A stretch of DNA of 64,000 nucleotides from Cryptosporangium minutisporangium (GTDB lineage Bacteria > Actinomycetota > Actinomycetes > Mycobacteriales > Cryptosporangiaceae), in NCBI RefSeq assembly GCF_039536245.1, contig NZ_BAAAYN010000017.1, positions 247,801-311,800 of the forward strand, written 5' to 3'. Position numbers and translations under genes: made by a program. Shown one piece after another: positions 15,394 through 18,369 of the stretch. The notes under the pieces are model-generated. The model searched no databases. It worked only from the letters and a program-made list of their open reading frames with translations, and had not been told where the DNA came from. How positions within the stretch are numbered: position 1 is the stretch's first letter; every line of letters begins with the position of its first letter.

Positions 15394-16050
15394 TCATCTC
15401 CCGCGGGAGGGCGGCGTATTCGATCCGGTGACGCCGCGGATCCGACGTCGCAGTGCGGAACTCGCGACCGGGCCGAGGTCGTCGGCGACCTCGAGCAGTA
15501 TTCCGAGCCGGTCCAGCGCGTCCAGCGCGGCGGTGGACCCGTTCGGGTCGACGGCTTCGAACAACTCCATGCCGACGAACGCCGCCGAGACCGCGTGCGC
15601 CAATCCGGTCACGTCGACGACCTGTTCGATCGGCGATCCGGTGACCACCCGGCGGAGCACACCTTCGATCTCCCGCACCCAGAGCTGGATCGCCTCGCTG
15701 GTCGCGGACGCCAGACGCTCGTCGCCCTGCGCGCCGGCCAACATCTGGGCCAGCAGCGTGACGTTGCCCCGCTCGCGCTGATCGGCGTGCAGGTCGCGGC
15801 CGAGCGCGAGCAGTTCCCGCATCGTCCGGATCGCCGCGAAGCGCTCCCGGTACCGGGCGACGTCGGCCGCGGTGGCTGCCCGGCAGGCCTCGTTCAGCAG
15901 GTCCGCGACGCTGCCGAAGTGGTAGAAGACCAGCGCCTGGTTGACGCCGGCGGTGGCCGCCACCGTCCGCGCGGACGTACCGGCGATGCCGTTCCGGCGA
16001 ACCGTCTCGATCGCCCCGTCGATCAAGCGCTGCCGGGTGTCCTCCGCCAT
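15394..16050 (-). CDS. TetR-family repressor
   Basis: The 218-residue protein has a TetR N-terminal HTH (about 5-50, with TSARTVAATAGVNQALVFYHF) and a variable all-helical ligand domain. Its start overlaps the end of the preceding methyltransferase gene by 28 bases, so it is the last gene of a three-gene operon. Two identical palindromes in the promoter of that operon (18319 and 18354) are the obvious targets, which makes this a self-regulated, ligand-responsive unit. The ligand is unknown, but the partner genes suggest a lipid-like or hydrophobic compound. Confidence 0.93.
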   Translation of the reverse strand: MAEDTRQRLIDGAIETVRRNGIAGTSARTVAATAGVNQALVFYHFGSVADLLNEACRAATAADVARYRERFAAIRTMRELLALGRDLHADQRERGNVTLLAQMLAGAQGDERLASATSEAIQLWVREIEGVLRRVVTGSPIEQVVDVTGLAHAVSAAFVGMELFEAVDPNGSTAALDALDRLGILLEVADDLGPVASSALRRRIRGVTGSNTPPSRGR

Positions 16051-17399
16051 TCGTCTCCGTTCACCGAGGCCGCTTCGGGCCGCTCGTCGTGGCCCGGCGC
16101 CGACGGTAGTCCGCGGCCGACCGGCTCCGCGCTCGGGCCGAAGCCCACTCCGTCGGCGACCCTCGCCACGACCCACCGAATCACCGGCAGCCGCGCGAGC
16201 CAACCGAGCACGGCGGGCCCCGCGCCGACGTGCTCGACGGCGAGCGCGACCGCCTCGACACCATCGACCACTACGCCGTCGTCGCGTTCGTACCGCACCC
16301 GGTACAGCGCGCCCGGATATTCCCGGGCGTCCGCCAGCGTCAGCCCGACTCCGTCCGAGCGGCCGAACGCGCCGTGCAGCTCGCGGCACTGCACGCAGCC
16401 GAGGTCCAGATAGAGCGTGGCGGATCGGAACCCGGCCGGACGCCGTCGCGGGATCCAGCGCCGCACCCGGCTGCGGTACGCCGTCCACTCCGGCCCGTAC
16501 CGACGCCGCAGGTCGTCGTCCTCGTGTTTCTCGGCGACGGCTTCGCTGAAGACCACCGACATCACCGCGGCAGCGGCCACCGCCCAGCTCTCGAGGGCGA
16601 TCGCGAGCACGCCGGTCAGTAGCGTGGCCGAGACCTGCATCGGGTTCGCCAGGTAGGCGTACGGACCGGTGGTGACCAGCCGGCTCGGTGGGTCCCACGG
16701 GTAGGGCGTCCCGCCGCCCCGCTCGGCGAATTCGCGCACCGCGGCCAGACCGGGCACCGAAGCGAGCACGGCCGCCTGAACCAAGAGCGAGAGCCACCAG
16801 CGCGGAGCACGCAACACCGCACTCCAGGATCCGTCGCCCACCGCCATCACGACGGTCGGCACCAACCAGAGCACCAACCCGGCGAAGAGAGCCATCTGCA
16901 GAACGACCCGCAGACGCAGGTGGCGTCCGGCCGCCGTGCACTCCCCCAGCACGACCGCCGGCAACGCCACCAGCAGCAGTCCGAGCAGCTCGCCCCATCC
17001 CCAGCCGGAACCGAGCCGGACCAGCGGCGTGAGGGCGGGCATCGTCACCGCGTCGATCCAGCCGACCGCCGCGAGCAGGATCGGCGTCCGCAGCATCGTC
17101 GGCCAATGACCGGACAGCAGTCGACCGACCGCCACCGGCAGCGGTCCCCAGAGCACCGCCCAACCCAGCCAGAGGTCGGCGGGCAGGCCGTCGAACGCTC
17201 CGTGGACCGGCAGGTACGACCACCAGTCGGCCCAGCGCGCCAGGCGGTCCAGCAACGCGACGCCGACCAGCGCCAGGAGGAACGCGAGCAGTAGCGCGCC
17301 GCGCGTGCGCCGGGAGCCGCGGACCGGGTAGGCGGCCGCGACCAGCGCGGCGACGGGCACCGCGAGGACGGCGTACCGCGCGACCGCGAGGCCGGTCAT
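16023..17399 (-). CDS. Membrane methyltransferase (ICMT/PEMT-like) fused to a DCC (DUF393) thiol domain
   Basis: The first 225 residues hold six to seven hydrophobic segments. Residues 235-320 carry the isoprenylcysteine/phospholipid methyltransferase signature (TGPYAYLANPMQ at 244-255, then Glu-rich HEDDDLRRRYGPEW). Residues 327-430 form a DCC-type domain with a CxxC (Cys335-Val-Gln-Cys338) and the DGVEAVALAV and LARLP segments of that family. A fusion of these two activities is unusual; methylation of a membrane-bound thiol or a quinone-like lipid is one possible reading. The start overlaps the upstream stop (ATGA) and the end overlaps tetR. Confidence 0.82.
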   Translation of the reverse strand: MTGLAVARYAVLAVPVAALVAAAYPVRGSRRTRGALLLAFLLALVGVALLDRLARWADWWSYLPVHGAFDGLPADLWLGWAVLWGPLPVAVGRLLSGHWPTMLRTPILLAAVGWIDAVTMPALTPLVRLGSGWGWGELLGLLLVALPAVVLGECTAAGRHLRLRVVLQMALFAGLVLWLVPTVVMAVGDGSWSAVLRAPRWWLSLLVQAAVLASVPGLAAVREFAERGGGTPYPWDPPSRLVTTGPYAYLANPMQVSATLLTGVLAIALESWAVAAAAVMSVVFSEAVAEKHEDDDLRRRYGPEWTAYRSRVRRWIPRRRPAGFRSATLYLDLGCVQCRELHGAFGRSDGVGLTLADAREYPGALYRVRYERDDGVVVDGVEAVALAVEHVGAGPAVLGWLARLPVIRWVVARVADGVGFGPSAEPVGRGLPSAPGHDERPEAASVNGDEWRRTPGSA

Positions 17400-18307
17400 G
17401 CCGGTTGCAGCCCGAGGCTGTCCAGGAGGTAACGCTCTCCGGCGCGGACGAACGCGTCCTCCATCGGCCCGAAGTACCAGGACGGGTCGAGTCGGCGCTC
17501 GAACTCGATCTGCAGCCGGACGTCCGAGCCGCCGTCCGGATTCGACGCCCACCGCAGGACGGCCGTTCGCCAGATCAGCGAGTGGTTCGTCATCGACGTG
17601 TCGGAGAGTCGGCGGAACACGATCCGGCGACCGTCCCGGTACGGCTCGTTCGCGACGACCTGGGTGACGATCGCGCCACCGTGCTGGCCGATGTGCCACC
17701 GGCGGCCGACGTCCACGCCGGCGCCGGCCGCGTGGTCGGGCGTCGGGTAGCCGAGGCGGAGCAGCAACGGGCGCGCGACACCGAACCGCGGACCGGCCGC
17801 GACGGTCGCCTGCACCTGCGCGGGTGTGAGCACGACGTGGCGGGTTACGGTCACCGCCTGGACCGGCGCGATCCGCAGCGTCGGGATCACGCCCTCGATT
17901 GCGATGACGGCGAGTAGTGGCAGAGCGAACGCCACCCCGAGGCGGCGGTCGAACAGCCGCACCAGGCCGGCGACGCCATGCGCGGCCAGGTAGACCAGCG
18001 GAGCGGCCATCAGCAGGCAGATCGCGCCTTCCTGGAGCAGGGCGGCGAAGAGCAGCATGAGGATCGTCGTCGAGACGAAGACCGTGCCGTGCAGGCTGTA
18101 GGGCGCCGGGGCCAGTGCGAGCAGGAGCGCGAGCCCTGCCGGAAGGCCCACGAACAGCAGCGCGCTGTCCTCCCGACCGGTCGCGACCGTGATCCAGAAG
18201 CCGAGGATCGCGAAGACCGCGACGATCACCGTCCATCCGACGCGCCACCACATTCCACGCCGCCGACGTGGTGTCTCCTGCGGCGCCGCCGCTTCGCCCT
18301 CGTCCAT
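17396..18307 (-). CDS. Membrane protein with four to five helices and a possible SRPBCC-like tail
   Basis: The 303-residue protein has hydrophobic helices at roughly 20-40, 46-62, 70-105 and 120-140, followed by about 150 soluble residues. The tail (VLTPAQVQATVAAGPRFG, then WHIGQHGG, then MEDAFVRAGERYLLDSLG) has the alternating strands and final amphipathic helix of polyketide-cyclase/START-like ligand-binding domains, but this is an inference. The ATG at 18307 has an excellent AAAGGAGG upstream. It heads the operon controlled by the twin TetR palindromes. Confidence 0.8.
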   Translation of the reverse strand: MDEGEAAAPQETPRRRRGMWWRVGWTVIVAVFAILGFWITVATGREDSALLFVGLPAGLALLLALAPAPYSLHGTVFVSTTILMLLFAALLQEGAICLLMAAPLVYLAAHGVAGLVRLFDRRLGVAFALPLLAVIAIEGVIPTLRIAPVQAVTVTRHVVLTPAQVQATVAAGPRFGVARPLLLRLGYPTPDHAAGAGVDVGRRWHIGQHGGAIVTQVVANEPYRDGRRIVFRRLSDTSMTNHSLIWRTAVLRWASNPDGGSDVRLQIEFERRLDPSWYFGPMEDAFVRAGERYLLDSLGLQPA

Positions 18308-18318
18308 GCTCGCCTCCT

Positions 18319-18334
18319 TTGAGCGATCGCTCAA
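18319..18334. promoter_or_regulatory. TetR operator 1
   Basis: The perfect 16-bp palindrome TTGAGCGATCGCTCAA lies just upstream of the ribosome site of the gene at 18307. The identical sequence recurs 35 bases further upstream. Placement over the promoter and leader fits repression by the TetR encoded last in the same operon. Confidence 0.85.
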
Positions 18335-18353
18335 GGCCGAGCATAGGCAGGGT

Positions 18354-18369
18354 TTGAGCGATCGCTCAA
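18354..18369. promoter_or_regulatory. TetR operator 2
   Basis: This is an exact second copy of TTGAGCGATCGCTCAA, 35 bases from the first, centre to centre. Two identical sites suggest cooperative binding or two dimers covering the promoter. Confidence 0.85.

Follow-up and report, generated by a model that had tools for sequence, protein, structure and literature searches.

The stretch analysed here (64,000 nucleotides of Cryptosporangium minutisporangium, assembly GCF_039536245.1, contig NZ_BAAAYN010000017.1, forward-strand positions 247,801 to 311,800; hereafter the window) carries an operon of three overlapping genes on the minus strand. The first gene (17396–18307) encodes a membrane protein of 303 residues with a C-terminal SRPBCC/START-like domain, the second (16023–17399) a 458-residue fusion of an N-terminal helical bundle, an ICMT/PEMT-type domain and a C-terminal thioredoxin-like, DCC1-like domain, and the last (15394–16050) a TetR-family repressor of 218 residues. 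The SRPBCC and fusion genes overlap by 4 nucleotides (ATGA) and the fusion and TetR genes by 28. This arrangement behind two identical palindromes had been proposed in an original prediction made from the window, and the gene coordinates, overlaps and palindrome positions agree with it, except that the interval given there (16023–18369) leaves most of the TetR gene outside.

The two 16 base-pair (bp) palindromes, each reading TTGAGCGATCGCTCAA (general form TTGAGCN4GCTCAA), are located 35 bp apart at 18354–18369 (operator 1, promoter-distal) and 18319–18334 (operator 2). When the window was searched with a 17-mer allowing up to three mismatches, these two sites alone were returned (four strand-wise matches, compared with a mean of 0.09 in 100 shuffled sequences). 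On the minus strand, the first half of operator 1 (TTGAGC, 18364–18369) doubles as a putative −35 hexamer; the candidate −10 hexamer TATGCT (18340–18345) follows at 18 bp, between the operators, and operator 2 lies downstream of it. A putative ribosome-binding site, AGGAGG, occupies 18313–18318 on the same strand.

The repressor was assigned to the TetR family by its match to PF00440 (TetR_N; 37.7 bits, cut-off 24, E = 1.8e-9). In the membrane protein, five predicted helices (within residues 13–137) are followed by the SRPBCC domain (residues ~148–299; 17411–17866), which scores 28.9 bits against PF10604 (Polyketide_cyc2; cut-off 27.4, E = 1.6e-6). The AlphaFold (AF2) model of this protein has a predicted local distance difference test score (pLDDT) of 91.8, and Foldseek returned 225 matches at E ≤ 0.001 (best E = 2.8e-6), with Bet v 1/PYL-type folds among them. 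The START-like tail suspected on this protein is therefore present according to both profile and predicted fold.

The fusion protein and its family

The fusion consists of a helical membrane bundle (residues 1–164; 16908–17399), an ICMT/PEMT-type methyltransferase-like domain (residues 165–318; 16446–16907) and a thioredoxin-like, DCC1-like domain (residues 324–420; 16140–16430) that includes the CxxC motif CVQC (residues 335–338; 16386–16397). Against Pfam, the window protein scores 33.3 bits for PF04191 (PEMT; cut-off 25, E = 7.1e-8); this family is matched at E ≤ 1 by all 57 fusion members and the ICMT family by 14. For PF04134 (DCC1-like, which we take to be the former DUF393) the score is 14.8 bits, below the cut-off of 27.8 (E = 0.07), and 34 of the 57 members match at E ≤ 1 (best 3.3e-5); the DCC assignment has support from relatives and stays under the threshold in the window protein. 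The N-terminal bundle has no Pfam family, and INSIG was absent from the matches of the 57 members at E ≤ 1.

A model of the fusion was calculated with AlphaFold from the alignment of 57 sequences (pLDDT 92.2, predicted template-modelling score 0.88) and compared with solved structures using VIA-align. Residues 165–318 of the model adopt an ICMT-type fold; methyl transfer itself is predicted. They superimpose on the ICMTs 4a2n (Ma-ICMT; Z = 10.1) and 5vg9 (Z = 10.4) with root-mean-square deviations (r.m.s.d.s) of 3.1–3.6 for 128–130 aligned residues. The PEMT profile and the conserved G-Y, P-M and E positions are common to the fusion and to Ma-ICMT and 5v7p/5vg9 (the latter presumably the Tribolium ICMT). 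The fusion differs from these enzymes in the extra N-terminal bundle, the C-terminal CxxC domain, the sequence NPMQ where 4a2n has RHPMY, and a score of 29.5 bits, far under the cut-off of 160, for the NCBIfam isoprenylcysteine methyltransferase model NF040696. The last two differences speak against methylation of protein prenylcysteine in the manner of eukaryotic ICMT, which we regard as very improbable despite the common fold class.

In VIA-align the model scored highest with a delta(14)-sterol reductase (4quv; Z = 10.7, r.m.s.d. 5.0 for 185 aligned residues, within residues 4–318), level with the ICMTs. As the ICMT fold is common to NADPH-dependent sterol reductases and a DCC domain could pass electrons, the fusion might be a membrane reductase rather than a methyltransferase. 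The profiles, however, favour a methyltransferase: every one of the 57 members matches PEMT and 14 match ICMT, and the 16 families listed at E ≤ 1 include none of sterol reductases, so that a reductase appears unlikely. Residues 21–162 align with the Insig homologue MvINS (4xu4; Z = 7.9, r.m.s.d. 3.6, 131 aligned residues), which they resemble in the general arrangement of the bundle; as helical bundles under about Z = 13 may share arrangement only, and Pfam gives no INSIG match, this weak likeness is treated as a lead. Residues 324–396 returned many rows with thioredoxin, glutaredoxin and GST-N folds, at Z values of only 3.4–5.0. The C-terminal part resembles the DCC1-like thiol-disulfide oxidoreductases in its probable thioredoxin-like domain and its CxxC motif, and differs from them in scoring below the Pfam cut-off and in being joined to a membrane enzyme. 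A membrane methyltransferase-like part joined to a CxxC domain, as originally proposed, is consistent with the PEMT match, the ICMT-type fold and the CVQC motif, and the two predicted structures (pLDDT of about 92 for both) contain the ICMT-type and SRPBCC folds and a probable thioredoxin-like fold.

Relatives were sought in 61 related genomes, in 396 from across the phylum and in two single families, represented by 121 genomes (apparently Micromonosporaceae) and by 16. Profile hidden Markov models were made from family members found in this analysis, and genes were called with a codon-bias script, by which some genes were missed. A scan of named genomes using the single window protein gave no relative, whereas an alignment query did; the named-genome set used below consists of the best 80 of 94 fusion loci from this alignment-based scan. 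The fusion is a conserved, widespread family. It is present at full length in 20 of the 121 Micromonosporaceae genomes (one of which has its DCC part divided between two frames) and in four of the 16 genomes of the distant actinobacterial family. The hosts in the named set include Micromonospora, Actinoplanes, Mycobacterium, Rhodococcus, Tsukamurella, Nocardioides and Acidimicrobiales, and also members of the Chloroflexi and Planctomycetota, a Candidatus Acidiferrum metagenome-assembled genome and Bradyrhizobium; a plasmid search gave one Tsukamurella record. The ICMT-type and DCC parts are in one frame in 80 of 80 named loci, and the SRPBCC-membrane gene adjoins the fusion in 76. No description of the fusion was found in the open-licence papers searched, in keeping with the earlier statement that no such system was known. 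In a distant actinobacterial genome, a TIGR01777 gene lies directly downstream of the fusion (L066, 12321–13208).

Both CxxC cysteines are conserved in 75 of the 80 relatives; CGPC is the commonest form (34) and the two middle residues are highly variable. A split form, the search for which had been suggested, was found in genome G456: at L063 (8398–9771) the SRPBCC gene occurs with a fusion that has its DCC part frameshifted (two frames), and on a separate contig (L065, 9305–10260) a DCC-only protein of 117 residues, with its own operator in front, overlaps a TetR orthologue. The DCC-only protein, the variable middle residues and the loss of the motif in five relatives that retain the fusion would all suit a CxxC domain that gates the enzyme as a redox sensor or structural appendage and stands outside the chemistry. 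The conservation of both cysteines in the other 75 argues against this, and we consider such a role somewhat doubtful.

The operator, its repressor and the genes behind it

TetR is encoded at 48 of the 80 named fusion loci (42 downstream, five divergent and one upstream with the same orientation). In front of the SRPBCC gene, TTGAGCN4GCTCAA palindromes are found repeatedly, often as pairs 33–36 bp apart. Of the 42 loci with TetR downstream, 41 could be scored: the operator is exact in 37 and has one mismatch in two more, compared with approximately 0 in shuffled sequence. Of 62 oriented tandem pairs, 61 have a TANNNT 16–18 bp beyond their first TTGAGC (antisense, one of 62; shuffled-spacer mean, 3.4), which places the −35 in the first operator and the −10 between the two. 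The recognition helix of the repressor covaries with the operator: NQAL(V/I) pairs with TTGAGC, and NSALV with TTAATC in five of five cases. This covariation ties TetR to the operator, although it may reflect just one or two evolutionary events. TetR control of the operon is well supported by the footprint (here, sequence conservation) and the covariation; binding is predicted. As in known TetR/AcrR autorepressors with palindromic operators, a TetR_N domain is combined with an operator at the repressor's own promoter; the differences here are the tandem operators, the −35 inside the first of them and the dispersed set of genes of uncharacterized families.

The operator pattern was first scanned in 24 genomes and 23 regions were read, in which the genes beside operators were DUF2071, SRPBCC-DUF4166, TIGR01777 and YndJ. 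A stricter tandem pattern was present in 103 of 350 Micromonosporaceae-like genomes, with 0 for the reversed control among the genomes listed. Among the matches listed, 70 tandem loci were assembled (30 from the family scan and 40 further). The facing gene is SRPBCC-DUF4166 in 19, TIGR01777 in 17, the fusion operon in 14, DUF2071 in eight, TetR in four and another gene in eight, so that 62 of the 70 face one of five gene groups. Four further listed tandem pairs are outside this count (one in G456, seen as L198, two in G531 and one in G573), and L212 and L221 repeat loci already seen as L053 and L205. Single operators at L186 (inside a coding region) and L206 were set aside as chance-like and are not among the 70. 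The original reading of a TetR-controlled operon with an ICMT-type methyltransferase, a CxxC domain and a START-like tail is supported; the spread of the fusion and the further operator-bearing gene families had been missed.

TetR orthologues were detected in 13 of 13 genomes checked and, at E ≤ 1e-40, in 21 of the 296 genomes searched within the class. A search of the latter by TetR alone gave 19 new loci, 13 of them near SRPBCC-DUF4166, DUF4166 or DUF2071 (ten within the first stretch and three more after 13 of the 19 loci were widened), several also with operators in front of these families. In the genome of the window, an exact operator precedes a DUF2071 gene (L184) and YndJ is preceded by two operators, one mismatch each, 29 bp apart; no DUF4166 was found there. 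Two congeners (G001 and G003) retain TetR at 84–85% identity, with an operator at DUF2071 in both and also at YndJ in G003; YndJ with tandem operators occurs in three congeneric genomes, including that of the window. On a Streptomyces plasmid, a row SRPBCC-DUF4166-TetR stands behind two exact operators; another plasmid carries SRPBCC-DUF4166 but lacks this operator.

The palindrome might instead be an operator of a common TetR type that more than one regulator recognizes, in which case the genes behind it would not form one regulon. Tandem loci that face other genes (eight of 70) and single matches that look like chance, such as that in the coding region at L186, would be consistent with this. 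Against it stand the empty reversed control, the covariation of the recognition helix with the operator, and the loci chosen by TetR alone, 13 of 19 of which have the TetR orthologue close to these families, several with operators in front; we judge it quite unlikely.

The same families also occur side by side outside this setting. TetR-free SRPBCC-DUF4166-YndJ rows are found in the Bacillota (plasmid records of Niallia taxi and Bacillus amyloliquefaciens), with no TetR or ICMT::DCC match in the stretches read, and DUF4166-YndJ in the archaeon Haloarcula; the adjacency in Bacillota supports one functional set. In open-licence papers, none was found that names any two of DUF4166, DUF2071, YndJ, TIGR01777 and DUF393; DUF4166 was not found, YndJ is mentioned with no title devoted to its function, and the search listings held no paper linking TTGAGC and a TetR regulon in Micromonospora. 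For the TIGR01777-group protein, the NCBIfam model ranking second to TIGR01777 is ThyD. ThyD of Anabaena is connected with high-light acclimation and effects on FtsZ (PMC12288457), which was not considered enough to assign a function to the TIGR01777 proteins here. DUF2071 is described as related to the acetoacetate decarboxylase fold but without the Schiff-base lysine (PMC4520260).

Proposed mechanism

The tandem operators before this dispersed gene set place the operon, as one part, in a TetR regulon that brings together several uncharacterized families. In the mechanism that we propose, an autoregulated TetR would repress promoters built of two TTGAGCN4GCTCAA palindromes; with palindrome 1 over the −35 and palindrome 2 just past the −10, a bound pair of dimers would block RNA polymerase. 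Ligand-released repression is usual for the TetR family, and binding of a probably hydrophobic ligand would release the repressor, so that a set of proteins with a joint action would be made. In this operon these are the ICMT::DCC fusion and the membrane-anchored SRPBCC protein; at other sites of the genome, and depending on the lineage, they are SRPBCC-DUF4166, DUF2071, the TIGR01777 oxidoreductase and YndJ. The fusion would most likely methylate a membrane-soluble small molecule from S-adenosylmethionine (SAM), the CxxC domain may hold this substrate, or a partner, in the reduced state, and binding or presenting the substrate may fall to the SRPBCC protein as a carrier. That this substrate is a thiol, quinone or lipid, as originally suggested, is conjectural. 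We assign a probability of roughly 0.6 to this explanation as a whole. Its regulatory part is very probable, whereas the chemistry (SAM-dependent, dithiol-assisted methylation of a membrane-soluble small molecule) is tentative and rather likelier to be wrong than right.

The shared operator before several families of unknown function suggests that all of them serve one undescribed pathway. In its fuller form this would be a widespread membrane small-molecule pathway, with ICMT::DCC, DUF2071, TIGR01777, SRPBCC-DUF4166 and YndJ as successive or cooperating parts and the SRPBCC protein of the operon as substrate carrier, a possibility to which we give somewhat less than an even chance. One operator and, seemingly, one regulator in any case link the new fusion with DUF4166, DUF2071, YndJ and TIGR01777, which makes all of these families more accessible to experiment.

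Several observations weigh against this explanation. On the regulatory side, 32 of the 80 fusion loci have no TetR match in the stretch examined and 21 of the 26 scorable among these lack the TTGAGC-type operator, so other regulators must act there. All five loci with a divergent TetR are without the TTGAGC form and carry TTAATC-N4-GATTAA palindromes instead. Eight of the 70 tandem loci face genes outside the set, including one for a small membrane protein; no operator lies near the single DUF4166 gene of G002; and the full fusion was not found by search in G001 and G003 although TetR is retained. On the side of the chemistry, Foldseek gave no match to the fusion model at E ≤ 0.001 (ICMTs scored E = 0.18 to 0.77), and the CxxC motif is missing from four Bradyrhizobium/Rhizobiales records and one Deltaproteobacterium (L140, L142, L143, L149 and L144), where the dithiol is thus dispensable.

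Further loci

The four Bradyrhizobium-type fusion loci that lack the CxxC motif also show no SRPBCC match. In two congeners (L189, 3674–4312; L190, 3558–4193) TetR stands alone, the SRPBCC gene and the fusion being gone while operators persist elsewhere; it is flanked by apparent housekeeping genes that we take to be coaX and lysS. At L303 (4496–5881) and L306 (649–2004), genes for proteins of 461 and 451 residues, with no Pfam match, precede a TetR orthologue in an apparent operon behind an operator. Membrane proteins of ~190–220 residues and of no known family are encoded behind operators at L218, L238, L243, L202 and L204 (Actinoplanes-type). Among the eight other tandem loci are a presumed glucan-hydrolase-like gene and a presumed lipoprotein-like gene in divergent orientation, and at L195, L270, L275 and L276 (Catellatospora-type) tandem operators lie between a gene that we take to be a GH15-like glucan hydrolase and a divergent gene. 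At L185 and L187, YndJ with tandem operators is located beside genes that we assume to encode an ECF sigma factor with its partner.

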